A stretch of DNA of 28,657 nt from Cladosporium sp. IMV 00045 (lineage: Eukaryota; Ascomycota; Dothideomycetes; Cladosporiales; Cladosporiaceae). Under the pieces are notes generated by a model. It searched no databases, was not told where the DNA came from, and was given only the letters and a program-made list of their open reading frames with translations. Both the position numbers and the translations under genes were made by a program. Where the stretch lies: the NCBI GenBank assembly GCA_001931905.2, contig MSJI02000214.1:1-28657 (forward strand), read 5' to 3'. Below, one piece after another: positions 4,098 through 21,745 of this stretch. Numbering within the stretch: position 1 is the stretch's first letter; each line of letters starts with the position of its first letter.

Positions 4098-4103
4098 TAT
4101 AAA
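4098..4103 (+). promoter_or_regulatory. TATA box of the Sde182-like gene
   Basis: TATAAA within TTTATAAATTAG, 74 nt upstream of the ATG at 4172. Spacing fits a core promoter with a leader of roughly 40-50 nt. Confidence 0.55.
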
Positions 4104-4171
4104 TTAGGACTGTATCCTCTCAGCTACAATCGCATCAGCTCAAGCATCTCTATCGATTTGTCTCTTCAACC

Positions 4172-5748
4172 ATGTTGCGACAACTTTGCGGTCTGCTGTT
4201 AGCAGGCCATGCTCTAGCGCAACAATGTCCACCTGCGATACAGATTGACCGCAAGCCTCAAGTATTCGTCATGTCTGACATAGCGAACGAACCGGACGAT
4301 ACGCAGTCTTTCATTCGCCTGTTGCTCCATGCGGATCAGTACAATATTACAGGCATGGCTGCCTCCACAAGCGTCTGGCTCAATTCAACTACAGCACCAG
4401 ACCAGATCTTGAAGTTGACTAAAGCCTATGGCGAGGTGGTCGACAATCTCAATCGTCACTCCGCAGGACAATTTCCAAGTGAGGAGTACTTGAGCTCTAT
4501 TGTCCGGTCTGGACATCCTGTGTACGGTACAGCAGCGATCGGAAAGCCGCTGTCATCTGGAGCAGAAAGAATGATAGAAGTTCTAGATGGCATGGATGAT
4601 AATGAACTCTTGCACTGCCAGGCGTGGGGAGGTGCCAACATTCTGGGCGAGGTTCTTGCCCACGTCCGCAACACCAGGACACAGCTTGACCAAGACAGGT
4701 TGTACAAGAAGATCCGTGTCTACACCATCTCGGACCAGGACAACGCGGGCATGTACATTCGACTTAACTTTCCTCAGATCCCATACATTGTCTCCGTTCA
4801 TGCGTTTAATCAATACGACTTGTCGACCTGGATTGGAATCAGCGGCGACGTCGTAAGTTTCTTCACTCGTGGCAAGCTATTCTGATTATCCTGACAATTT
4901 TCTAGGACGAAGGTGGACCGGACGCTAGTATTGTCAGCAACAACTATGTCTCGAAGAATTTCCAGATCGGCCCCCTTGGATCTCTATACCCAGACATTAT
5001 GTACATCATGGAAGGAGACACACCTTGCTTTTTGCACATCATGCAAAATGGACTGAATGGTGGACCGTTTGACCACCCAGAATGGGGCGGTTGGGGCGGT
5101 CGCTACACATTGACAGACTTGACGAGACAGAGTATGCACTACGGTGACACGATTGATAATGTTGTCGGCAAAGACAACAAGACATACGCTACCAACAAAG
5201 CCACCATCTGGCGCTGGAGGCAAGCCTTCCAGGACGAAATGAGCGCTCGCGTGCAATGGAGTGTGCAAAGCAACTACAGCGCCGCCTCGCACCCACCCGT
5301 CGTCAGCATCAATTCCTCCTGCGGGAGCGCACCTTTGGAGATCGAAGTCGACCCCGAGCAGACCATCACGCTTGACGCTTCCGAGACATACGACCCAGAC
5401 GCCAATTTGACGGACAGGAATGCGCTGCAGTTCAGATGGTTCAATTACCGCGACATCAACACCTTGCGAGGGGACGACGATGCGGTAGCAAACCTCAACC
5501 ACACGCTGTCTGGCGCTATTCATGGCAGTGTGCTCACCACTACTTTGCCTTCGGCGGAGGTCGCTTGCGCAGGAGGCCCAGGCTTGTTTGCTCCTGAGGG
5601 TGTGCAGGCGGTGTGTGAGCAGTATCACGTTATCCTCGAGGTGCTCGGAAGTGGCACACCACCTATGAGGAGGTATAAGAGAGTTATCTTGAAGGTGCAA
5701 TCTCCTCTTGAGGCGCAAACGACAAGGAGGAAGAGAGACGAGCTGTAA
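4172..5748 (+). CDS. secreted Sde182-like (DUF1593) protein ending in RDEL
   Basis: Two exons, 4172-4852 and 4906-5748, with a 53-nt intron (GTAAGT...CTAG), give 507 residues. The N-terminus is a signal peptide with likely cleavage after ALAQ (about residue 17). The body matches the family named 'cellulose-binding Sde182, nucleoside hydrolase-like' (formerly DUF1593): an Asp-rich start VMSDIANEPDDTQS resembling the metal-binding loop of nucleoside hydrolases, then HCQAWGGAN and YTISDQDNAG, then a C-terminal beta-rich domain (PEQTITLDASETYDPD). The family is linked to plant cell-wall material; the true substrate is not settled. The last residues are KRDEL, an ER-retrieval-type tetrapeptide, which is odd for a secreted wall-active protein. 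Several Asn-X-Ser/Thr sites are present. The start has a good ACCATG context and a TATA box upstream. Confidence 0.85.
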
Positions 5749-9678: not shown

Positions 9679-11251
9679 CTAGTAGTACCATCTGAAATCG
9701 GGACTCCGAGGTCCATCCTTCATCAACGCAGTCGAGACATCTGGACCACGCATGCGAACGCCAGGTCCCTGCTTCCTGTCTCGCCGCCTGTTGTCGAAAA
9801 TCATGAACGTGCCCAGACTCAAAGTCAGGACTATGCCCATGGCACCGAATGCGGCTGTCGTCGCGAGCGCGGGGATGTAGTCAGGAGCGTCCTCGTTTCT
9901 GAAGATATTGGAAGACACCAGACCCATCAAGTTTGCGAGCGGGATACCGATCGAAGTGAGAAGAACACGGCGACCTTCGTGTGCTATGTTGTTGTTGAAG
10001 AGCACATCGAGCAGGACCGAAGGCGCCGAAGTGCCCCAAGTCATCATGAAGCAGGCAAAGTAGGCCACTTGCAGCGATTGCTCGACGTCGATGGCGGCGT
10101 AGATCACAAACCCAACGAAGGTGAAGAAGAAACCCAGGGCGACGAATGGGAATCTCCAGCGAGTGTAGTCGGAGGCGAAACCAAGGATGAGTAGCATCAC
10201 GGCGCCAGTGATGTTCGGCGCTACGGTGTACAGGTTGGTTTTCACGGTAGTGTAACCAAGTCGGGCCACGATTTGCGGCAAAAATAGCGCTACACTCTGC
10301 AGTGGGATGCCCAAACAGACTTCGATACCCAGGATGACCCAACTAGTCGGTTCTTTCAAGATACGAATGGCGTCCTTGAAAACGAAGGGCTCGTTGACAA
10401 CCGATGAGGAGTCGACCTGCATGCGATGGAATGCGAGCTTCTTCTCGTCCTCGGTCAAGAATTTGGCGTGCGCCGCAGAGTATGGTAGGAAAATGAAGGC
10501 GATGATTGACATGCAGATCGTCAAGCCGCCTTCGATGGCGAAGAGGTAGCGCCAGTTATCGAGCGCACCGCCTTCGATCTGGAATGTGCCGAAAGCGAGC
10601 AGTCCACCAAAAGCGTAGGCAATGTTGGATGCTGCGTAGAAGATAGCGAGACGACGAGCCAGCTCTCCACGACGATAGAACTGCGTTTGGTAGTATATCA
10701 CCAAGGGGAAGAAGGCACCTGTTTGGACTAGTGTTAGCAAGCAACTCATAACAGTAGCCAAGCGAGGTGGAGTTGAGCTTACTTTCAGCCATTCCAAGAA
10801 ACCAGCGCAAGGCGAAGAGGCCGGAGAAGCCTTCCACGGTAATCACCAGCAGTGTCATCGAGCCGAAGGTGAACATCATAGCCGGAAGCACACGACTTGG
10901 TCCGTACTTCTTTCCCAAGATGGCCAGGAATGGTGCTGTCAAGACATAAGGTACGAAGAAGATAGACAAGATGATGTTGTATTGGTTGGTGCCGAGCATG
11001 CCCAGATCTTCCTCCAGACCAGCAGTCTTCGCGTTTCCAAGGTTCGATTTGTCGAGTGCGTTGAACAGATACATGACAGACAGTAGTGGTAGAATCCGAA
11101 AGTCGAACTTCCTCACCAGCCGTCTTTCAGCAGCTGGGTCGATGCTGTATGTCTCAGCGACCGTTGCTTCGGTTTGTGGGCCATCTTCTTTGGCTCCACA
11201 TTCTGGGTCTGAGGTCTTCACTGCCGTGGATTTATCTTCGATCGATGCCAT
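9679..11251 (-). CDS. MFS transporter, ACS (anion:cation symporter) family
   Basis: Exons 11251-10783 and 10718-9679 on the minus strand with a 64-nt intron (GTAAGC, GCTAAC, ACAG) give 502 residues. About 12 membrane segments are apparent. The ACS/allantoate-permease signature is clear: an acidic N-terminus, RKFDFRILPLLSVMYLFNALDKSNLGNAK, the GKKYGPSR loop, GMAES-AFFPLVIYY (spanning the intron), and a central loop with LTEDEKKLAFHRM. Family members carry carboxylated solutes such as allantoate, nicotinate, pantothenate and small peptides across the plasma membrane. It is divergent to the D-serine dehydratase gene and shares its 426-nt promoter, suggesting uptake of the cluster's substrate, perhaps an N-acyl-D-amino acid (inference). 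A 17-nt tandem repeat lies just upstream of the start. Confidence 0.92.
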
Positions 11252-11677
11252 TGATTTGCGTGATCCAGTGTTCGCTTGGTAGGTGTGTTCGCTTGGTAGG
11301 TGTGTTCGCTTGGTAGGTGTGTTCGCTTGTTCAAGATAACAATGATCACTGGAATCGATTCAGACTTAAATGTAACTTGCCAGAAGCAAAAACACCTCCC
11401 TGGCGCTCATCCTCTCGAGTATATGTACATCGCGTTGATTGCGGGGGAACCAAGACACACGCGACACCCCATGGAGATAAGAACTGCAAACGCACGTGGG
11501 ATCGACACCCCCAAGGTGCCAATCAATCATCCTTATCTGTGACCCCACTCGGTTGGGGGTCACCCTTTGGTGCGATCACCGATAGCCGGGGATTAGAACA
11601 ACGATAAGAAGTAATTAAGATCTTGTTCTCCTACAGAATCTTCTGCATCATCAATCTCATTGGCTGTATTCGAAATC
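11252..11677. promoter_or_regulatory. bidirectional promoter, transporter / D-serine dehydratase
   Basis: The 426-nt divergent promoter. G5/C5-core sites: GGGGG at 11443-11447, ACCCCCAA at 11507-11514, and TTGGGGGT at 11553-11560. The last is one arm of the inverted repeat GTGACCCC (11539-11546) / GGGGTCAC (11556-11563). GATA-type sites (HGATAR): AGATAA at 11334 and 11475, TTATCT at 11533, CGATAA at 11602. The 17-nt tandem repeat sits next to the transporter start. Binding by the cluster's C2H2 factor and a GATA factor is inferred. Confidence 0.55.
11268..11329. repeat. 17-nt tandem repeat, about 3.7 copies
   Basis: Unit GTGTTCGCTTGGTAGGT starts at 11268, 11285, 11302 and 11319; the fourth copy is partial and diverges after GTGTTCGCTTG. 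The array begins 17 nt before the transporter ATG, so it lies in its 5' leader or core promoter. Confidence 0.95.
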
Positions 11678-13191
11678 ATGGACATCACTGCGAGATACCC
11701 GAATGCCCTCAAGGAAGACCTCAGGACGACGTACCTCGGGAAAAGTCTACAGGAGGCCGACACCCCAACCGCCATCATTGATGTTGCTGCTGCACGTCGG
11801 AATTGTCAGTCGATGCTCGAGGCTTGTGACGCTCTCGGTGTCAAATTTCGAGCCCACGTAAAAACACACAAAGTCAGTAAAAGCCTATTGAACACATACA
11901 CGACGTACTAATTCGATACAGACTGTCGAGCTCACGAAGCTGCAAGTAGGCGAAGGGCCCAGACCTGTGAACTTGGCCGTTTCGACGATCTCCGAGCTCG
12001 AATTTCTGTTACCTTTATTGATCGAATGCGTGAAACAAGGTCGACTGGTCAATGTAAGTCTAAGTGCTGGGTTTGATATCTTGCATACCATTAACCCCAA
12101 CGCAGGTGTTATATGGACTCCCGGTATCGCCATCCGTCGTTCCTAGATTATTGAAGGCGCAATCACTGCTTGGGGAAGGCAGCATTTCAGTCTTGATTGA
12201 CAATGCAGAAGCTGTAACACTGTTGTCCGACGCTTTCAAGGCAGCCCATCACAAGATTAGTGTCTACATCAAACTTGACACTGGGGGCAATCGTGCTGGA
12301 GTGCATCCAGCATCTCCTCAACTTTCGGAGATCTTGGAAGCCTTCAAAGCCCATCGTGTGAATCCCGAATGGCCATTCGAACTTCATGGATTCTACAGTC
12401 ATCTCGGGGCAAGCTACAGCTCAAGCAGCACGGGCGAGGCGCTGGCATTCCTTCTTCAAGAGATTGAACGTTGTGCCATCGCTTCCACTACGGCGAAGAA
12501 GGTCTTTCCCACCGACTCATATACGATTGCTGTGGGAGCAACACCGACAGCTATGGCTGCGCAAAATCTACTAGACCCGAAGACTTTCGACCCAGCCACG
12601 AAACAAGCCAAAGACTCTCTGGACCGGATCAAAGAGTCCTTCAACATCGAAATACACGCCGGTGCCTATTGCACGCTTGATATGCAACAACTAGCCAGTC
12701 GTTCCCGTCCAGAGAACACCAATCTTGGTTATGACGATGTCGCTCTGACGGTTCTTGCTGAAGTCGCCAGCTTATATCCGCATAGGAGTCCGCCTGAGGC
12801 TTTGATAGCTTCGGGATGCTTAGCATTGGGTCGGGAGGCTTGCAAGAGCTACCCCGGCATGGGCGTCATCACGCCATGGAAATCTTCAGAGTCGAGAGCG
12901 CACTTGCAGAACCGGACGCAGAAGAGTCTTGAGTCTTCATTTTTCGATCCACTTGGTGCTCGCCAGGGATGGATTGTCGATCGCATTGCTCAGGAGCATG
13001 GTATCCTCAGCTGGCAAGGTTCACAGGACAACATTCGCCCCCTGGCCCTGGGACAGAAAGTTCGCATCTGGCCGAATCATTGTTGTATCACCGCGGCATG
13101 TTTCGGTTATTTCTTGATTGTAGATAGCTCGGCTGATGGCGCGGAAAAGGATCGCATAGCAGACGTTTGGGTGCGTTGCCGAGGCTGGTAA
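11678..13191 (+). CDS. D-serine dehydratase (DSD1-type, PLP/Zn)
   Basis: Three exons, 11678-11872, 11922-12053 and 12106-13191, with introns of 49 and 52 nt, give 470 residues. The fold is the alanine-racemase-like (fold III) PLP family that includes eukaryotic D-serine ammonia-lyase, D-threonine aldolase and D-threo-3-hydroxyaspartate dehydratase. Seen: an ADTPTAIIDVAAARRN start; the PLP lysine Lys62 in RAHVKTHK; YIKLDTGGNRAGV; VGATPTA; HAGAYCTLD; and the zinc-binding His434-x-Cys436 in PNHCCITA near the C-terminus. The zinc site favours a dehydratase or related lyase over a racemase. Dehydration of D-serine releases 2-aminoacrylate, which goes to pyruvate and ammonia. The ATG at 11678 is the only good start. 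The gene is divergent from the transporter, and its 3' neighbour RidA is a natural partner. Confidence 0.9.
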
Positions 13192-13449
13192 TGATGAATC
13201 GATATGGGAATACTTCAAGCCTAAGCATTCGAGTTCCCTCTGAATCGCTGCTTTGTTTTCTTTTCGTGTTTACGGCGCTCGAGTTCTTGTTCTACATCCA
13301 CTGGTTCCATATCAGCCGATGGATTCATTGTAAAGTCTCAAGCAGATTACAGTGAACATGAAGACCGCATGGTATCATGGCACAATGATGGTTCTTTTCG
13401 TGGAGTCATTTCATTCTTCATCGGATCGCTATGAATGCACTATATTGCC

Positions 13450-13946
13450 CTAAAGGTGGCCGGAGCACTCGATCTCGACATCTGTACCAAGAGGAAGCGA
13501 CTTCACGCAAACGCAGGTACGAACCTGTTTAGAGTCAGAATTGGACGACTTGGGGTACTGATGCTATGGCGACACTTACAGGCTTGGGATCAGGGAAGAA
13601 TTTGCCGTATACCTCGTTCACCGCAGCAAAGTCGCCCATGTCCGCAAGGAAGATGTTGACTTTTACGGCCTTAGCGAGACTTGAGCCACCAGCTTCGAGG
13701 ACTGCGCTGAGATTCTTGAGGACTTGCTCCTGGATGTGGGTGTTAGCGCTGGTCTTGAAGTGTTGCTCGGTTTTGGAAACTCACTGTTCTGGCCTGTACA
13801 TCGCCCTCTACCAGCTTTCCGGTCGCGGGGTCGGTGCCGACCTGACCAGAGCAGTATACCATGTCTCCGACGACGAGGCCCTGGTTGAGGACCGGAATAG
13901 GCTTGGGCGCCTTGTCGGTAAGAATGACTTGCTTGGTGAGCGGCAT
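13450..13946 (-). CDS. RidA family enamine/imine deaminase
   Basis: Three exons on the minus strand: 13946-13785, 13729-13580 and 13524-13450, with two 55-nt introns, giving 128 residues, the standard RidA (YjgF/YER057c/UK114) length. Seen: the N-terminal MPLTKQVILTDKAPKPI; the VYCSGQVGTDPATGKLVEG core; the AVLEAGGSSLAKAVKVNIFL segment; and an Arg in the VRTCVCVKSLP strand, which in the family binds the substrate carboxylate. RidA hydrolyses reactive 2-aminoacrylate and related enamines/imines made by PLP-dependent dehydratases, protecting other PLP enzymes. It is convergent with the D-serine dehydratase gene and divergent from the D-aminoacylase gene. This placement next to a 2-aminoacrylate-forming enzyme is strong contextual support for a joint role. 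Confidence 0.93.
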
Positions 13947-14611
13947 TTTGATCTTGATTCTTCTGTTGTAATATTTCTTCGCTTCGAGTTGGATTGATGT
14001 GAGTCTGTCTGATAGAATCTGTGTAGCACTGGACAACTGATACCTTGGACATGAAGAAGGCAAAGGTGTCCTGTAGATGATGTTCCCCACTCCGACCCCC
14101 AATGTTGACCCCCACCACGCCCTACGGAGAGAAAGTAGTGGAGGTTTGATAAGCGACTTGCGAGGTCGGCACCATCCATGAGTCCTCGGTCGGCGAGCCA
14201 TACCGGCGCCCTTCAACCCCGCAGCTTCATTTCAAAGCTTGTGTCGCCATTTGTTGAACGCGATTGTCGTTGCGTGATCGATACTACGAACTTGTGTAAC
14301 GTTGCTGATAACGATGCTTGTTATCGGTTTAGCAAAATGCAACACCGCCTTGTAAGGTATGTAGTTACTACTGTACCCCCAAATCGGAGTATCATTCAAG
14401 TGCTTGAGGTTCAACAAGATTCTCGGCATGAATCGGCTATTCTCACTGTCAAGTAGGGCTGATAACAACCAACAATGGCCTTTCGAATGGCGTTAATATG
14501 GGGATCAGTTGTGGCGGGCTGGAGGGAAACTGACCCCTAGATCCCATCCTGGCTGCAAGTGCAAGCCTCAACCTCTTCCCTTTCCATCGCACCAATTTTT
14601 CAGCTTGTATC
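13947..14611. promoter_or_regulatory. bidirectional promoter, RidA / D-aminoacylase
   Basis: 665 nt with no gene. Motif copies: ACCCCCAA at 14095-14102, ACCCCCA at 14108-14114 and ACCCCCAA at 14375-14382. GATA-type sites: TGATAA at 14147, 14306 and 14460. The one at 14306 pairs with TTATCG at 14321, so that GATAAC and GTTATC form a 6-nt inverted repeat with a 7-nt spacer. This suggests nitrogen-source control together with a pathway regulator (inference). Confidence 0.5.
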
Positions 14612-16372
14612 ATGACAATCAAGTGCATAAACAGCATCCTATTCAAGTCTGCCAACGTCATCGATGGCACAGGCTGCACTCCAGCTTTCAATGCGAATGT
14701 CTTGGTGAAAGATGGCTACATTGAAACGATCCAACCGCTCGGCGACGATAATGACCTTAAGGACGTCTCCGACCACAATGCTCGAGTGATTGATTGCGAG
14801 AACGGCAAATGGACTCTTTGCCCGGGCTTTATTGATATGCATGCCCATTCGGATCTTTCTTTACTTCACACACCGAAACATCTGGCAAAGATCACCCAAG
14901 GAGTTACCTTAGACGTCGTCGGTCAAGACGGAATATCGTACAGTCCGGTCACCGATACCTCGATGGCCCGTATCAGAAAGCAAATCGCAGGCTGGAATGG
15001 AAATCCATCTGAGCCGCCAGACTTCTTCGACAGATGGCGTAGCGTTAAAGAGTATCTCGATGTTCTCGACCATTCGAAGATCGCTGTGAATGCAGCCTAC
15101 CTGGTGCCACAAGGCAATCTCCGGATCCTTGTTAAAGGCTGGGATAAATCACCTTGCACTCAAGAAGAGATCGATTTGATGAAAAATCACCTGCATACCG
15201 CATTCAAAGATGGAGCTGTAGGCATGTCATCGGGTCTCACATATGTGCCGGGCATGTTCGCGGACAATGCTGAGCTCACACAACTATGCCGAGTAGTGAA
15301 GCAGTACGACGGCTACTTCTGCCCTCATCACCGGTCCTACGGTAAAGGTGCAATTCAAGCTTATGCCGAGATGCTTGATCTTGCCCGCAAGACTGGTATC
15401 AGGCTACATCTGACGCATGCCACTCTCAACTTCCCCGAGAACGCTGGTCGGGCTGATGAGCTGATAGCCATGATTGACGCAGCGTTGGAAGAGGGCTTAG
15501 ACATTACGTTGGACACTTATCCTTACCTCCCTGGCTCTACAACACTGGCCGCACTCCTTCCCAGCTGGGTCTCATCGGCTGACAACAAACTCGACATTCT
15601 GAGCGATGGGGAACAGCTTGCAAAGATCAGGCATCAAGCACTCATCTTGGGCACGGACGGATGCATGGGCTGCACTTTGGATTGGGACACCATCGAGATT
15701 GGCGGTGTTCAAAATCCTTCACTTGCCGAACCGTATGTTGGCAAGACGATTGATCAAATCGCCCGCGAGGAAGGAAAGGACGCCTTCGATGTTTGGATCG
15801 AGATCCTCAAGGCGGATGACTTTGGTACTACTATCATGCAACACGCGGGTCACGAAGGAAACGTACGCAAAATCATGCGTCACCGTGTACACACCGGGGG
15901 CTCCGACGGTATTCTGACGTCCACCAAACCACATCCGAGAGGCTGGGGAACGTTCGCTAGGTATTTGGGTCATTACCACCGCGATTTGAGTCAAGGCAAA
16001 TCACGGAACATCACTGGCACTCAAGGCTCTGTGGGTGGCGATATCTTCGAAAGCGTCGAGCCCGAGACTATATTCGCTGGAGGGCTGGTGGAGGTTGTTA
16101 GTCACTTGACAGGTCGACCTGCTGCGATCCTTCGGCTACGCGATCGCGGCCTTGTCAAAGAGGGCTACCGGGCAGACCTATTACTGTTTGATGCAGATAC
16201 CATTAGTGATGCTGCAACATTTGCTGTGCCGGAGCAGCCGGCCAAAGGAATTCGTACAGTTATGGTAAATGGCACGATCGCGGTGAATGAGGGTAAGCCC
16301 ACAGGGGCGAGAGCTGGAAAGACTATTCGATTACGAGAGGTGAAAAGAGATGCCGAGTACGTTGTTAGCTAG
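14612..16372 (+). CDS. N-acyl-D-amino-acid deacylase (D-aminoacylase family)
   Basis: A single exon of 586 residues in the amidohydrolase superfamily. The layout is an N-terminal beta sandwich (residues 1-65), a metal-dependent TIM barrel opening with GFIDMHAHSDL (metal ligands His77 and His79), HLTHATLNFPEN, DTYPYLPGSTTL, and the catalytic Asp at about 432 in HTGGSDG followed by KPHPRGWGTF. The C-terminal beta part has LRDRGLVKEGYRADLLLFD and VMVNGT. Family knowledge: these enzymes hydrolyse N-acyl-D-amino acids to a free D-amino acid plus a carboxylate. The segment TLDVVGQDGIS has Asp where the best-studied D-aminoacylases have a metal-binding Cys (GNCG), which points to a different subfamily. 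A dipeptidase or other cyclic amidase activity is possible. It is divergent to RidA and followed by the DapA-like gene. Confidence 0.88.
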   Translation: MTIKCINSILFKSANVIDGTGCTPAFNANVLVKDGYIETIQPLGDDNDLKDVSDHNARVIDCENGKWTLCPGFIDMHAHSDLSLLHTPKHLAKITQGVTLDVVGQDGISYSPVTDTSMARIRKQIAGWNGNPSEPPDFFDRWRSVKEYLDVLDHSKIAVNAAYLVPQGNLRILVKGWDKSPCTQEEIDLMKNHLHTAFKDGAVGMSSGLTYVPGMFADNAELTQLCRVVKQYDGYFCPHHRSYGKGAIQAYAEMLDLARKTGIRLHLTHATLNFPENAGRADELIAMIDAALEEGLDITLDTYPYLPGSTTLAALLPSWVSSADNKLDILSDGEQLAKIRHQALILGTDGCMGCTLDWDTIEIGGVQNPSLAEPYVGKTIDQIAREEGKDAFDVWIEILKADDFGTTIMQHAGHEGNVRKIMRHRVHTGGSDGILTSTKPHPRGWGTFARYLGHYHRDLSQGKSRNITGTQGSVGGDIFESVEPETIFAGGLVEVVSHLTGRPAAILRLRDRGLVKEGYRADLLLFDADTISDAATFAVPEQPAKGIRTVMVNGTIAVNEGKPTGARAGKTIRLREVKRDAEYVVS

Positions 16373-16689
16373 AATTTTTCTTATTGGTATTCCGAAGAAG
16401 GGTCCTGTATCAATTTTTTGAGACAAATGCAAATCGAGCCTTACTGAGCAAGAGCTCTTGACTTCTGCAAAGGCGCCATTACTCCCTTGGCTGGTGTGGC
16501 CATCTTCTCTGCTAAATTTGTGCCCCCAAATATGGGCGATCAAGCTGCGTCTTGTGAATTGGGGTGAATCATTAGACATTGGGGGTCAACCGTCGATTTA
16601 TTCAACATACAAATGATGAATCGTGAAGCATACAGACTCTTCTTCATACCAACCCAATCCAAATCTTAACATTGAGAACTATTCGAATC
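16373..16689. promoter_or_regulatory. promoter of the DapA-like gene
   Basis: 317 nt between two plus-strand genes. It contains GCCCCCAA at 16522-16529 and TTGGGGGT at 16579-16586, in opposite orientations about 50 nt apart, plus a four-G variant TTGGGGTG near 16559. They lie about 105-170 nt upstream of the start codon. Confidence 0.5.
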
Positions 16690-17673
16690 ATGGCTCCAAG
16701 CATCGCTACCGAATCACCAATGAGTGGCCAACACATCAGTCAGTCGCGGACGCATTCTCTCAAGCCTGGTATCTACGTGCCCACTGTTGCTTTCTTTGAA
16801 GCCGGTGAGCATCAAGCAGTCGATGTCGAAACCACCAAAAGACACGTTGAGGTACTTGCCAGCTCTGGGGTTACGGGCATCGTAACACATGGAAGCAATG
16901 GCGAGGCAGTCCATCTCAGCCATGAAGAACGAATGCTCATTACTCGGACAACACGAGAAGCTCTTGCGAGCAGTGGTCATGGCGATATGGCGCTGTTGGT
17001 AGGCTGCGGTGCACCATCAACACAAGAGACCATCAAGTTGTGCAAAGATGCAGCCGAGAGCGGTGGCAACTATGCACTTGTATTGCCACCAAGCTATTAC
17101 GGCTCTTTGTTGAACTCGAGCCTGATACTCGGCTTCTTCCGCGCCGTTGCAGACGCATCACCCATTCCTCTCGTGATCTACAATTTTCCCGCGGTACAAG
17201 GCGGTCTTGATCTCAACTCTGATCAGATCATTGAGCTCTCTCAACACCCAAATATCGTTGGCGTCAAGCTGACATGCGGCAACACTGGTAAATTGACTAG
17301 AGTGGCTGCTGCGACCTTATCGAGCGGGTTTGCAACCATGGGAGGCAGTGCAGATTTCTTGCTACCCACTCTCATCGCAGGAGGTCAGGGTGTTATCGCG
17401 GGTCTCGCAAATCTGAGTCCCAAGACTCATGTCAAGACCATGCAATTATACGAGCAGGGTCAAATCCAAGAGGCGCAGAGTCTGGCGACAGTACTTGCGC
17501 GAGGAGATTGGGTGGCGATCAAGGGCGGCTTCATTGCTGTCAAGACCGGATTGCAATCTTTCCGCGGCTACGGCGGTGTACCACGGCTGCCATGTGTCAA
17601 ACCTGACGAAGTCGCCGAGGCCAACATGGGAGAAGGGTTTGCTGAGATGATGAAACTGGAGGCCTGTATCTGA
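16690..17673 (+). CDS. DapA-family (DHDPS/NAL) aldolase or lyase
   Basis: A single exon of 327 residues in the class I aldolase family of dihydrodipicolinate synthase and N-acetylneuraminate lyase. Seen: THGSNGEAVHLSHEER, the equivalent of the GTTGE carboxylate-binding loop; Tyr164 in IYNFPAVQGG; the Schiff-base Lys193 in GVKLTCGN; and the GGQGVIAGLAN loop. Fungi do not make lysine by the DAP route, so this is not lysine biosynthesis. Family members in fungi include 4-hydroxy-2-oxoglutarate aldolases, 2-keto-3-deoxy-sugar aldolases and uncharacterised pyruvate lyases. In this cluster it could split or process a 2-oxo acid formed from a D-amino acid (inference). The ATG at 16690 gives a short, poorly conserved leader of about 25 residues; no targeting signal is clear. 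Confidence 0.88.
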   Translation: MAPSIATESPMSGQHISQSRTHSLKPGIYVPTVAFFEAGEHQAVDVETTKRHVEVLASSGVTGIVTHGSNGEAVHLSHEERMLITRTTREALASSGHGDMALLVGCGAPSTQETIKLCKDAAESGGNYALVLPPSYYGSLLNSSLILGFFRAVADASPIPLVIYNFPAVQGGLDLNSDQIIELSQHPNIVGVKLTCGNTGKLTRVAAATLSSGFATMGGSADFLLPTLIAGGQGVIAGLANLSPKTHVKTMQLYEQGQIQEAQSLATVLARGDWVAIKGGFIAVKTGLQSFRGYGGVPRLPCVKPDEVAEANMGEGFAEMMKLEACI

Positions 17674-17977
17674 AGCAGTTGGGCGCCTGTTGATAAGTAG
17701 GTAGCATCTAATACACATACGATTGATCGATCGTAGCATGTCATAAAGTCACGTTTCTCCGCCGGATTGATAGCTTATCAATTTGAATGTTGCTGGGGTG
17801 ACATCTTCCACACCTCGGCTGTAACATCGATACAGGGTACTGCTTTACAAGGCATATCAATCAACCCCACCCTGCCTATCTCTCCACATCCATTATGATC
17901 CACATAACCCCCAACGTGCCCCCACTCTCCCATTCGACATTGGAAATTGTCTTCCCCAACCCCCAAATTGATGTTAG
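17674..17977. promoter_or_regulatory. promoter of the cluster transcription factor
   Basis: 304 nt. Motif copies ACCCCCAA at 17907-17914, GCCCCCA at 17918-17924 and ACCCCCAA at 17959-17966; the last is only 11 nt before the ATG at 17978. The regulator gene may therefore control itself (inference). GATA-type sites are TGATAA at 17691 and TTATCA at 17775. Confidence 0.5.
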
Positions 17978-20479
17978 ATGTTCACCAACACGATGAGCAT
18001 GGAAGCGGAGACAGTGGACGCTCGACATGGTGTGAAGAGGAAACGCGCGAGTCGGGAAGGACTCCCAAAACGATTCCCCTGTCTCCATCCTGGATGCGAC
18101 AAACGATACTCACGAGCTGAACATCTCCAGAGGCACGCCTTGAATCACAGCTCCGACCCCTTGTATCGTTGCGAGGAGAATGGTTGCCACCAGACGTTCG
18201 TACGACAGGACCTTTTCGAACGGCATACCGCCAGGCATGGAACATCGTGTCCTGCTCAGAGCTCACCTGCAACAACACGAACAAGTGATGTGCGTGAGGT
18301 GGTTGCCTTTTCATATCCACAAGCGTCAGAGGATGACGGGCAATCACATGCGCCAGTACCAAGCTCTGCTCATCACAATGCTGAATTTCTAGTCGATGAA
18401 ATAACCATGGCAGGTGCGGACTGGTCGCTTCTTTCGCACGCAGGCGACGCCTCTGTTGTCGACCCATCTCAGAACAGCGACAATTTTGCCTCATGGCTTC
18501 TGAGTCCTCAAGCCCCTCATGGCTGGGATCTAGACCTCACTCCATTACTGTTTGCCGACTACGGTGTAGACTCTGGTTTGGGCCTGAGCAACAGCAATGG
18601 CTTCGGGGCAAGTCAATCAGAAATAGCCCCATCTGTTGATTCACTTGGGACATTGTTTGACGCAGCGAATGCGGATCTGGGGAATCTATCTCTACCACAC
18701 GCCACATACTCATTGGGCAGCAAGATCTCCATCTCTGGAAGACGGCTCAAGGAGATGAAGAACCTTATTCTAAGCTTCCGTTGCAGGAACGCATCCAACG
18801 TTTTCTTCAGTGATGCCGGAGCAGACAGTCTTCTCTTCCAGTCAGCTGAAGGAGACCTTCCCAACATCAGTGCCTCTGTCATCGATCAATGCGTGTCTTC
18901 ATTCTGGAAAGACGTGGCAGAGCAGATCTCAATCTTTCACTATCCAACGTTCTCCGTTGAGCATTGCCCTCCACTGCTGCTTTTGAACATTATCTCACTA
19001 GGTGCCGCGCAGCTGGTCCGAACTTCTTCTCCTGATGTCTTGAAACATTATCGAAGCTTTGCCGACATGATCATCACCAGCGTCCGATGGGAGATCTACA
19101 CACATGACGATGCTCAGCCTCCAGTCAAGCTGTGGGTAGCGCAGGCTCTCTTGTCGCTTGAATTCTACGAAAAGATGTACTCAAGTCGTCAACTACACGA
19201 ACGCGCACACATTCATCATGTCTCTACATTGACGCTACTGCGAAGAGGAAGTCCCCTGGGCGGGCAACCAGGTACAGAGATGCCTATCGATACCTCTACC
19301 AGCGCATCCCAGTATGCGAGCCGTGAGCAAAGTGAGAAACCACAGGTTCCAGTTGCTGACCCGGATGCATGGTGGAGACGATGGGCAAAGACGGAGTCTA
19401 TGCTGCGAGTCGTCTTCACAGCCTTTGAGATGGATACGTTGCACGCCATGATGTTTGGTCATGAGAGTAACTTGTTCCCCTACGACGTCAGTCTACCACT
19501 TCCTTGTGACAACATACTTTGGACAGCTACGTCTGCCGAACAGGTTCGCGAACTCGAAACCACTTTCTGCATGCAAGGCATTAGATCTTTGAAATTTCTG
19601 GATGGCCTCAAGAAGTACTTGCATGGCAACGACGTACAAACACATCAATATGCCCGCCAGATTTTGCTTGTAGGCCTGCTCAACGTCGGCTGGCATATTC
19701 GTCACCAAGAAAAACACATGCACCTGATCGACAGCGCCCCTGCGCAAGAGGAACGCAGCAAGTGGACGCGCAAGTTGCTTCGAGCGCTCGATCGATGGAA
19801 GCGCTCCCTGACAGACGTTCTCGAGAGCATCAAACCACACCAAACAATAAAATCCGATGACCGAAGCATGGCCAAGCCAAACACGCTCTATCGGCTGGCT
19901 TATATAACGATGCACGTCGACATAATCGACTGCCAGATTCTGGCTGGCTCGAAACTTTTATTGGGCAGACATGTCAGCGCGAGAGAGCGTGCTGGTGCAG
20001 CCTTTCGTGCTAAGACCTGGGCAAGCTCTCCAGAAGCCAACTTAGCAATCTTTCATTCTTTCAATTTGCTTTCGGAAACCCTCTTCCCTCAGCATATGTC
20101 GAGAAGTGACAGCGACTTATTGGAAAATGGAGCAGAATCCCACTACTCCAGTCGATCAGACCATTGTGTCTATCGTCCCTGGTCCCTCTACCTCGCCGCT
20201 CTTGCCATCTGGAAATACAACTACGCAAAGAGATCAAATTCACAGATCTCGAACACGAATTCGGCTTCAGCTGACAAGCAGAAAACTGTTTACGATTACA
20301 TCTCGAAGCATGCTAAGTCAGATGACCCACTCACATTGTCAGAAAGTGTATCAAAGCCCGATTGCATAGCACTTCTTCAATTCCTTGCAGACGACCTTGC
20401 TACAGCAGAACCTGAGATCTTGACCGAGGCTTCAAAACGACTTCGCGAATGCTGCAAATTGCTTTTTTCTCCAGTCTGA
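17978..20479 (+). CDS. C2H2 zinc-finger transcription factor with fungal-type regulatory domain
   Basis: A single exon of 833 residues. A basic stretch, KRKRASREGLPKR, precedes two C2H2 fingers: Cys35/Cys40/His53/His57 and Cys65/Cys70/His83/His87. Helix positions -1, 2, 3, 6 are R, E, H, R in finger 1 (typical for GGG) and R, D, L, R in finger 2 (G-rich triplet). The long remainder (about 280-700) resembles the 'fungal specific transcription factor' middle region, with blocks such as FWKDVAEQISIFHYPTF and SLEFYEKMYSSRQLHERAHI. It sits at the end of the D-amino-acid gene set and its own promoter holds three copies of the G5/C5 motif, so it is the likely pathway regulator. Two in-frame Mets at residues 6 and 8 are alternative starts. 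The C2H2 pair with this domain is well known in Pezizomycotina. Confidence 0.9.
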   Translation: MFTNTMSMEAETVDARHGVKRKRASREGLPKRFPCLHPGCDKRYSRAEHLQRHALNHSSDPLYRCEENGCHQTFVRQDLFERHTARHGTSCPAQSSPATTRTSDVREVVAFSYPQASEDDGQSHAPVPSSAHHNAEFLVDEITMAGADWSLLSHAGDASVVDPSQNSDNFASWLLSPQAPHGWDLDLTPLLFADYGVDSGLGLSNSNGFGASQSEIAPSVDSLGTLFDAANADLGNLSLPHATYSLGSKISISGRRLKEMKNLILSFRCRNASNVFFSDAGADSLLFQSAEGDLPNISASVIDQCVSSFWKDVAEQISIFHYPTFSVEHCPPLLLLNIISLGAAQLVRTSSPDVLKHYRSFADMIITSVRWEIYTHDDAQPPVKLWVAQALLSLEFYEKMYSSRQLHERAHIHHVSTLTLLRRGSPLGGQPGTEMPIDTSTSASQYASREQSEKPQVPVADPDAWWRRWAKTESMLRVVFTAFEMDTLHAMMFGHESNLFPYDVSLPLPCDNILWTATSAEQVRELETTFCMQGIRSLKFLDGLKKYLHGNDVQTHQYARQILLVGLLNVGWHIRHQEKHMHLIDSAPAQEERSKWTRKLLRALDRWKRSLTDVLESIKPHQTIKSDDRSMAKPNTLYRLAYITMHVDIIDCQILAGSKLLLGRHVSARERAGAAFRAKTWASSPEANLAIFHSFNLLSETLFPQHMSRSDSDLLENGAESHYSSRSDHCVYRPWSLYLAALAIWKYNYAKRSNSQISNTNSASADKQKTVYDYISKHAKSDDPLTLSESVSKPDCIALLQFLADDLATAEPEILTEASKRLRECCKLLFSPV

Positions 20480-20594: not shown

Positions 20595-21745
20595 TCAACC
20601 CTGGAAAGTCGGGTTAGGATACAAGACCAAAGGGGACGGCCCTTGCGGCGTGCCAAAGGCGTCCTCAAACTGATTCTTCCACCACTCGACGGTCGCACGA
20701 TCGTTCTCAAACTGCCGGAAACCAGCTGTCTGCGTAACGTTGCTCAGCAGAGGATTCGTCTCCTCCGTCTGCAAAGCATACTGCGTGCTCGACTGGGTCT
20801 CCTGGAACTCCCTACTCGCCAACCAAGAGATGAACAGCTTCGACGCCTCGGGCCTCGGCGTGCTTGCGAAAATAGCACCCGTCTGCGCCCAGGTCATGTA
20901 CTGGTCATTGGGGATCACGTCGCCCCACCAGTCCTCCGAGCCAGCACCGCCGCTGGTGAATGTGAGTGCTCTTGACGAGTTGGTCGAATTGTGCTGGTCC
21001 TCGAGTTCGAAGACGGGGGTGCCGGTGCCTCGCACCCACTGGACGTCGTTTGCGGCGACGCCCTCGAGCCAGGAGTGGCCGTATTTGGAGACGATGAGGG
21101 CGAAGAGGTAGGCTACGGCATCGTCGTCGTTGGGCCAGGTTAGAATGAGCTTCGACTTCCAGGCCGGGTCTGCGAAGGCTTCGAAGGTTGATGGGACGTC
21201 GGAAGCATCGAGCTTGGTCTTGTCGTAGAGCAGGTGACCGAAGTTGTCTGCACGAGTGTCAGTCTTCGAAGTCTTTCGATAGTTGAAGAGGCAGACTCAC
21301 AGTTGAAAAGACCCAACCAAGCGCCATCATGATCCTTCTCCCCATTGAAGATATCATCGAACTCCGCAGGCTTGTAGTACAGCAACCTGTTCTGGCTCTT
21401 CCACCTAGGAAAGTCCTGCAAAGTCTGCAGAACAGCGATGTCCGCGACATGGCCTCCCTCGTAAAATGCTCTATCAGCGCGTCCATCATGATACTTGCTG
21501 AGGTCGACCGTCAAGTTCAACGGGATGTTCGGGAAACGTTCCTTCCACGCGCTGCGAACACCATCGCCCTGTTCACCAGCATCGCCACCCCAAAAGACCT
21601 GAAGCGGCTGACTGCCATTCGAAGACTCCTGCTGAGCAGCGGCGTAGATTTCATCGAGAGACCTCGTCTCCTTCGGCACGTTGGGCTGCCATTGGGCAGA
21701 AGCGCCGATGATGGCCAAGGGCAACGCGGCGGTTTGGATTCTCAT
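20595..21745 (-). CDS. secreted bacterial-type extracellular solute-binding protein
   Basis: Two exons on the minus strand, 21745-21301 and 21247-20595, with a 53-nt intron, give 365 residues. A signal peptide is visible (MRIQTAALPLAIIGASAQ). The body resembles family 1 type periplasmic binding proteins of bacterial ABC importers, often labelled Fe3+/thiamine/spermidine binding: LQVFWGGDAGEQGDGVRSAWKERFPNI at the first ligand edge, then HVADIAVLQTLQDFPRW, and late in the chain WAQTGAIFASTPRPEASKLFISWLAS. Fungi have no matching ABC importer, so the role is open: ligand scavenging, effector or enzyme. The downstream gene set has no matching transporter. The promoter region lacks the ACCCCCAA motif. 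The stop at 20595 faces the stop of the transcription factor gene 115 nt away. Confidence 0.82.

Follow-up and report, generated by a model that had tools for sequence, protein, structure and literature searches.

A putative kinase-free route for N-acetyl-D-glucosaminate breakdown encoded by a six-gene cluster of Cladosporium sp. IMV 00045

Six neighbouring genes at positions 9679-20479 of a contig from Cladosporium sp. IMV 00045 encode a major facilitator superfamily (MFS) transporter, a DSD1-type pyridoxal 5'-phosphate (PLP) dehydratase, a RidA-family protein, an N-acyl-amino-acid deacylase-like protein, a DapA-family aldolase/lyase and a C2H2 transcription factor. The 28,657-base window that we analyzed is the whole of this contig (C212), one of 954 in a 49.9-Mb genome. 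On balance, we favour the reading that the cluster would specify a fungal, kinase-free breakdown of N-acetyl-D-glucosaminate (GlcNAc1A) ending in a DapA-type 2-keto-3-deoxygluconate (KDG) aldolase. That the substrate belongs to the class of amino-sugar acids, whether GlcNAc1A or a related compound such as an epimer, is probable. More tentatively, we propose the pathway in full as a phosphorylation-free eukaryotic GlcNAc1A pathway with a new deacetylase subfamily that has Asp for Cys and also occurs in actinobacterial KDG operons, a recruited DSD1 paralogue working with RidA, a KDG aldolase, and an Adr1-like regulator acting through TTGGGGGT. A pathway for this substrate has already been worked out in marine bacteria, and the cluster would represent a fungal variant of it.

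A sequence-only reading of this locus had proposed that an N-acylated D-amino acid is imported, deacylated, dehydrated with the aid of RidA and passed to the lyase. This reading is partly supported: our analysis favours co-located genes that share a promoter motif and would act in the sequence deacylation, RidA-aided PLP dehydration, lyase cleavage, but not the class of substrate. An aldolase of the DapA kind requires a 2-oxo-4-hydroxy acid, and a dehydratase of the D-Ser/D-Thr type gives a 2-oxo-4-hydroxy acid only from a 2-amino-3,4-dihydroxy acid. We moved the substrate to an amino-sugar acid because only then would a DSD1-type dehydratase feed such a lyase. The same reading had suggested that a hydroxylated D-amino acid could explain the lyase, and this suggestion can be sharpened, since the ong cluster of Pseudoalteromonas prydzensis and two actinobacterial operons make D-glucosaminate (2-amino-2-deoxy-D-gluconate) the best-supported candidate.

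Each enzymatic step of the proposed pathway is assigned from protein family and gene context. GlcNAc1A would originate from oxidised chitin, and its anion would be imported by the MFS protein. Deacylation by the amidohydrolase would then yield D-glucosaminate, whose C2 has the configuration of a D-amino acid. Loss of water across C2-C3, catalysed by the DSD1-type PLP enzyme, would give KDG and ammonia, with RidA speeding or detoxifying the enamine/imine stage. The DapA-family aldolase would split KDG to pyruvate and glyceraldehyde without phosphorylation, and the C2H2 regulator would turn the genes on through CCCCCAA sites, two per promoter region.

In P. prydzensis, the D-aminoacylase-like OngB deacetylates GlcNAc1A, the fold-type III PLP enzyme OngC forms KDG and ammonia from glucosaminate and can deaminate D-Ser and D-Thr as well, the RidA protein OngD is essential in vivo in a role given as unknown, and KdgK then phosphorylates KDG (Jiang et al. 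2022, PMC9537276). The ong-type gene classes, that is, a deacylase, a fold-type III PLP deaminase, RidA and a candidate KDG-consuming enzyme, are all present in the fungal cluster, with KDG as the presumed intermediate. Both clusters bring together a D-aminoacylase-like deacylase, a D-Ser-dehydratase-like fold-type III PLP enzyme, RidA, a transporter and a regulator. In the fungus, however, an MFS protein takes the place of the sodium:solute symporter (SSS) and a DapA-type aldolase that of the KDG kinase, the regulator is of the C2H2 type, the hexosaminidase and outer-membrane receptors are absent, and the deacylase is of another subfamily (Asp for Cys). Kinase-free cleavage of 2-keto-3-deoxy-hexonates is described for the fungal galacturonate and galactonate routes (PMC11219438), and KDG aldolase activity in Aspergillus niger is attributed to Allam 1975 (cited in PMC5814732). 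The D-galacturonate route, with its 2-keto-3-deoxy-L-galactonate (L-KDGal) aldolase LGA1/GaaC, resembles the proposed pathway in its kinase-free cleavage to pyruvate and glyceraldehyde, whereas it begins at a uronic acid and proceeds by reduction and dehydration without nitrogen removal. L-KDGal aldolase and dihydrodipicolinate synthase are given as two separate genes (PMC4279801). We propose a kinase-free fungal version because of the ong precedent together with two actinobacterial neighbourhoods that hold KDG genes.

The gene models are manual predictions that rest on consensus splice sites and uninterrupted reading frames. The six families named in the sequence-only reading were confirmed by Pfam matches above curated cut-offs (D-ser_dehydrat with Ala_racemase_N, MFS_1, Ribonuc_L-PSP, Amidohydro_3, DHDPS, and Fungal_trans with zf-C2H2), the transporter being confirmed as an MFS protein, and the two divergent gene pairs that it had noted, transporter/dehydratase and RidA/deacylase, are also seen in our models. 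The deacylase, lyase and regulator genes all lie on the + strand and lack introns. The transporter, a predicted importer of 502 residues (9679-11251, - strand; exons 10783-11251 and 9679-10718, one intron), matches PF07690 (MFS_1) at 114.5 bits, so that the assignment shown is MFS, within which the ACS family named in the sequence-only reading is a candidate; a search of solved structures gave no relative at E<=0.01. The RidA-family protein of 128 residues (13450-13946, - strand; exons 13785-13946, 13580-13729 and 13450-13524, two introns) scores 144.6 bits against TIGR00004, for which the cut-off is 106.25, and has Arg106, which we take to be the catalytic arginine. The lyase (16690-17673, + strand, 327 residues) matches PF00701, the DHDPS family, at 141.7 bits and has Lys193 and Tyr164, presumably the class I aldolase residues of the DapA superfamily.

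The dehydratase (11678-13191, + strand; exons 11678-11872, 11922-12053 and 12106-13191, two introns) is a protein of 470 residues that matches PF14031 at 86.4 bits against a cut-off of 22. Its Lys62, His434 and Cys436, which we assume to be the PLP lysine and the zinc pair, are invariant in a 28-row alignment. It shares PF14031, the NHxC zinc motif and the PLP lysine with yeast and fungal DSD1 D-serine dehydratases; unlike them, it falls outside the Dothideomycete DSD1 clade on a long branch and has Ala at position x of GxSY. Fungal protein comparisons here and below rest on the best 120 matches of each search. The organism has its ordinary DSD1 elsewhere in two copies, on contigs C434 (47%) and C888 (45%). 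In a tree of 30 rows (the query, 27 of the 120 matches and these two copies, leaving out three bacterial rows and three partial cluster rows), the two ordinary copies group with Dothideomycete DSD1s (95/89), and the cluster enzyme groups with Onygenales, Eurotiales and Xylona sequences (100/99). All five cluster-type enzymes have GASY, whereas GHSY is found in 19 of the 28 other fungal rows and Ala in none of them; this is weak evidence because position x of GxSY is variable. That a separate paralogue exists alongside DSD1 speaks for a substrate different from D-serine.

The six genes are more than chance neighbours, since the 8-mer ACCCCCAA is confined to the promoters of the cluster and the order of three of the genes is kept in Cladosporium fusiforme. 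ACCCCCAA, whose reverse is TTGGGGGT, occurs seven times in the window, and all seven occurrences lie inside four cluster promoter regions (1,712 bases); the flanks of the cluster and those 3' spacers that were checked contain none. The expected number in the window is 0.67, and 0 of 100 shuffles reached seven, as did 0 of 3000 dinucleotide shuffles of the promoters (mean 0.07). The motif was first spotted by eye; in an all-8-mer scan made afterwards it ranked top in enrichment, with 7 occurrences in promoters versus 0 in the remaining window. The shorter CCCCCAA is present exactly twice in each of the four regions and four more times outside the cluster. The bidirectional transporter/dehydratase promoter (11252-11677) carries ACCCCCAA as a convergent pair at 11507-11514 (+) and 11553-11560 (-), the bidirectional RidA/deacylase promoter (13947-14611) carries motifs at 14095-14102 and 14375-14382 (+), the lyase promoter (16373-16689) carries GCCCCCAA at 16522-16529 (+) and ACCCCCAA at 16579-16586 (-), and the regulator promoter (17674-17977) carries motifs at 17907-17914 and 17959-17966 (+). 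The transporter promoter also contains, at 11270-11330, a short tandem repeat of GTTCGCTTGGTAGGTGT in about three to four units.

Across the 49.9-Mb genome, the convergent arrangement ACCCCCAA-N25-55-TTGGGGGT is found at two places, the locus itself and a second copy of it, versus 0 for a reversed control. The tandem arrangement is not specific, with 13 places (two being the locus and its copy) versus 9 control matches; one identical tandem pair that was opened lies, by eye, inside an intron of a methyltransferase-like gene, and two further places are homologous to each other (92%). Additional regulon members may lie among the remaining tandem places. A genome-wide search for a divergent pair gave 0. 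The regulator (17978-20479, + strand, 833 residues) combines Fungal_trans with two C2H2 fingers that can be read from its sequence, of which Pfam reports one, as the best stretch. Its finger helices presumably match those of Adr1, and yeast ADR1 (2adr, E 8.6e-6) is among its solved relatives, many others of which, mostly vertebrate, score higher. The Adr1 consensus, TTGGRG (PMC3897899), is contained in TTGGGGGT. We predict that the regulator binds the TTGGGGGT sites.

The second copy lies on contig C893 (20001-50000) and is collinear with most of window positions 4751-28638, with individual segments showing 77-94% DNA identity and the cluster as a whole about 90%. It retains all eight CCCCCAA sites of the promoters, which are themselves 75.6-88.0% identical and have 45.7% of their 7-mers unchanged; at that rate, the probability of retaining eight out of eight by chance is about 0.002. 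The copy is collinear beyond the cluster too and therefore tests the motif, not the clustering. Other genes, such as the ordinary DSD1, are also paired in the genome, and these pairs, together with the roughly 90% identical collinear copy, suggest that the genome is hybrid or doubled, or that the assembly combines two related strains. Two further details may be recorded: 34 bases of the GTTCGCTTGGTAGGTGT repeat are absent from the second copy, and contigs C725 and C950 have a common stretch of 3,043 bases that is 100% identical, unlike the pairs of roughly 90%.

Among the fungal matches listed, the nearest named relative by protein is C. fusiforme (Dothideomycetes), with identities of 87% for the deacylase, 84% for the dehydratase and 82% for the lyase. 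In that species the lyase (Q7P37_000723), deacylase (Q7P37_000724) and dehydratase (Q7P37_000726) keep their order, on a contig of equal length in each search, so three of the six genes are co-located in a related genome, and the refuting condition set by the sequence-only reading, a lack of co-location in every related genome, does not hold; RidA is presumably 000725. In three further deacylase/dehydratase pairs, both genes lie on contigs of the same length (80944, 10235 and 8459, respectively), so that each pair is probably on one contig; the first pair, with 95 and 94% identity to the window, probably corresponds to the second copy.

We also opened 15 prokaryotic deacylase loci, drawn from 60 listed plasmid matches (130 records matched in all), together with 6 to 14 kb of flanking sequence. 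Gene tables for the plasmids are not complete, and 14 of the 15 loci were read; the fifteenth, from Ciceribacter (L045), is without annotation and resolved to the deacylase alone, with a DSD-type match 8.7 kb off. By tblastn, the best among the listed plasmid matches are Arthrobacter sp. StoSoilB13 (51.8%) and Tsukamurella (50.4%), followed by one at 34.1%; full alignment to the fungal deacylase gives 55% and 54%, respectively, and both proteins have its GQDG and HAT motifs. A DSD-type or racemase-like gene lies near the deacylase in 4 of the 14 loci. The Tsukamurella, Arthrobacter and Klebsiella loci have a PF14031 gene, and it is these three that hold KDG-handling genes (3/4, versus 0/10 of the other loci). 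The Azospirillum locus has a deacylase, RidA, an "alanine racemase" that matches only Ala_racemase_N, and an ATP-binding cassette (ABC) transporter, without KDG genes. GQDG/HAT deacylases make up two of the seven prokaryotic proteins aligned, both from among the three KDG-gene loci; nine of the opened loci fall outside that alignment.

The operons of Tsukamurella tyrosinosolvens (L044) and Arthrobacter (L046) resemble the fungal cluster in that a GQDG/HAT deacylase adjoins a PF14031 dehydratase, the latter only a distant relative of the fungal one. They differ from it in having a KDG-kinase-like PfkB protein with a 2-keto-3-deoxy-6-phosphogluconate (KDPG) aldolase, a GntP permease and an IclR regulator. 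The Tsukamurella locus comprises RidA, IclR, PfkB kinase, dehydratase, deacylase, KDPG aldolase and GntP permease, and the Arthrobacter locus comprises the same set minus RidA, none being recognised among the open reading frames listed. The best NCBIfam models for both PfkB kinases are those of kinases for KDG and 2-keto-3-deoxygalactonate (KDGal), with scores below the cut-offs, and the Arthrobacter and Tsukamurella aldolases pass TIGR01182 (185.9 and 169.4 versus 156.05). The Klebsiella locus has an ong-type set with an annotated KDGal kinase and a 2-keto-3-deoxy-6-phosphogalactonate (KDPGal) aldolase. By eye, the deacylase on this plasmid (L049, 7986-9425) matches the PDB 9g5m chain across the part compared; although 9g5m is named an N-acyl-D-amino-acid deacylase, the natural substrate may be GlcNAc1A, because the gene stands in an ong-type cluster.

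The fungal deacylase, an Amidohydro_3 protein of the GQDG/HAT type (14612-16372, + strand, 586 residues), falls in the D-aminoacylase fold group by comparison with solved structures, and its solved relatives tie between D-aminoacylase and GlcNAc1A deacetylase, so that this comparison is uninformative on the choice between them. His77, His79, His239, His269 and Asp432, which we take to be active-site residues, are present. The active-site residues claimed in the sequence-only reading are thus found in the dehydratase, RidA, the lyase and the deacylase, except that the deacylase has Asp106 where D-aminoacylases have a zinc Cys. Tyr285, Ser291, Asp368 and Arg379 of the OngB family are matched by Y303, S309, D432 and R443, as placed by alignment to D-aminoacylase structures plus an offset, not to PpOngB directly. 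The predicted structure has a mean pLDDT of 81.1, with values below 50 in the active-site-bearing loops 306-309 and 433-445. The deacylase groups with the two actinobacterial proteins, which have both the GQDG and the HAT change at 54-55% identity; the single haloarchaeal relative in the alignment shares GQDG but retains a lysine. A scan of genome contigs gave three loci at 22-31% identity, two of them used only in the deacylase alignment. Relatives of the GQDG type, often labelled D-aminoacylase, are listed from many Dothideomycetes, Sordariomycetes and Basidiomycetes.

Several observations weigh against the GlcNAc1A reading. In an alignment of 31 sequences (the window and 30 of 120 listed matches, fungal where named), Asp106 replaces the zinc Cys (GQDG for GNCG) and Thr271 replaces the carboxylate-binding Lys (HAT for HHK) in all 31. 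OngB has a subtype V metal site of Cys97, His222 and His252, and its Lys254 anchors the alpha-carboxylate; the 2025 PpOngB study gives both Cys and Lys as strictly conserved in GlcNAc1A deacetylases and D-aminoacylases (PMC12017989). Of this metal site, His239 and His269 are kept in the fungal protein and the Cys is missing. Likewise, neither the Cys ligand nor the Lys anchor of AfDam-type D-aminoacylases is present, Asp106 and Thr271 standing instead. The sugar contact Ser292 of OngB becomes Thr310 by alignment and offset, and the counterpart of Gln298 would fall in a longer fungal insertion, where it could not be placed. Direct membership in the OngB family was rejected on three features (Cys, Lys254 and Ser292). 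Because the strictly conserved Cys and Lys are both replaced, the deacylase belongs to neither the GlcNAc1A deacetylase nor the D-aminoacylase family as defined, and its changed pocket may accommodate another epimer or acyl group. As for the lyase, none of the NCBIfam models exceeds its cut-off, and among characterised solved enzymes it is nearer to 4-hydroxy-2-oxoglutarate aldolase than to YagE. The deacylase is widespread in fungi, and it and the DSD-like gene lie on contigs that differ in length in all seven other species that could be compared between the two lists (Dothistroma, Ramularia, Polychaeton, Bimuria, Lecanosticta, Recurvomyces and a Teratosphaeriaceae strain; Meristemomyces was left out because its tags come from different assemblies). 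As far as seen, the cluster is lineage-restricted, being found in close relatives only. Finally, the case for KDG rests on reaction logic, two actinobacterial operons and one characterised bacterial pathway.

The rival that survives best, which we nevertheless consider unlikely, is that a simple N-acyl-D-amino acid such as N-acetyl-D-Ser or N-acetyl-D-Thr is imported, deacylated and dehydrated with the aid of RidA, the 2-oxo acid is used, and the lyase is unrelated or has a side role. Several sources call the deacylase family D-aminoacylase or N-acyl-D-amino-acid deacylase, Thr310 stands at a D-aminoacylase-like position, and the dehydratase has a DSD1 domain with the His-x-Cys zinc pair. In addition, since the Azospirillum operon lacks KDG genes, a plain D-amino-acid version may exist. 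We rank this route below the GlcNAc1A reading because it leaves the lyase without a job: plain N-acyl-D-Ser or N-acyl-D-Thr, the substrate of the sequence-only reading, would keep it idle even though its promoter bears the shared motif. This substrate is also disfavoured by the separate ordinary DSD1, present in two copies, and by the best bacterial relatives found, which adjoin KDG-kinase-like and KDPG-aldolase genes.

Less likely still, the same chemistry could be applied to a different amino-sugar acid or acyl group, such as N-acetyl-D-galactosaminate or N-acetyl-D-mannosaminate, to give KDGal or KDG. The lack of conservation in the deacylase at the PpOngB sugar contact that could be placed (Ser292) fits this alternative, as do the best matches of both actinobacterial kinases to bifunctional KDG/KDGal kinase models and the KDGal kinase and KDPGal aldolase annotated in the ong-type cluster of Klebsiella. 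Against it, GlcNAc1A is the terminal unit in the products of known chitin-active lytic polysaccharide monooxygenases (LPMOs) (PMC12017989). Very improbable is a route from N-acyl-3-hydroxy-D-aspartate, in which dehydration would give oxaloacetate for the lyase to act on; D-threo-3-hydroxyaspartate dehydratase ranks second among the solved relatives of the cluster dehydratase (89.6 bits), but oxaloacetate needs no aldolase and such a route is annotated in none of the 14 prokaryotic neighbourhoods read. That the genes form no pathway and are neighbours by chance we find hardly credible: adjacent fungal genes need not share a function, and the deacylase and DSD-like gene are unlinked in seven other species, but the confined shared motif and the gene order conserved in C. 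fusiforme speak against it.

Outside the cluster, the window contains upstream a Sde182 nucleoside-hydrolase-like gene (4103-5748, PF07632) without the shared motif and an acetoacetyl-CoA-synthetase-like gene whose first exon matches AMP-binding and ACAS_N. A gene at 20595-21296 on the - strand shows a weak likeness to SBP_bac_6, a bacterial extracellular solute-binding family, at 24.4 bits, just below the cut-off of 24.6.

In the open-access literature searched, we found no description of a fungal route for GlcNAc1A, and the remarks on fungi in the ong papers name none (PMC9537276, PMC12017989). Some fungi make chitin-active LPMOs that leave C1-oxidised ends, as reported for an AA10 enzyme of Ustilago maydis (PMC10617569). 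The proposal is testable, as the genes, the candidate substrate and the cis-motif of the locus are all specified. If the GlcNAc1A reading is true, the locus would show how one regulated pathway was put together from a bacterial-type deacylase with a DSD1 paralogue and an aldolase that are both fungal, and the widespread fungal annotation "N-acyl-D-amino-acid deacylase" may be wrong in its substrate.

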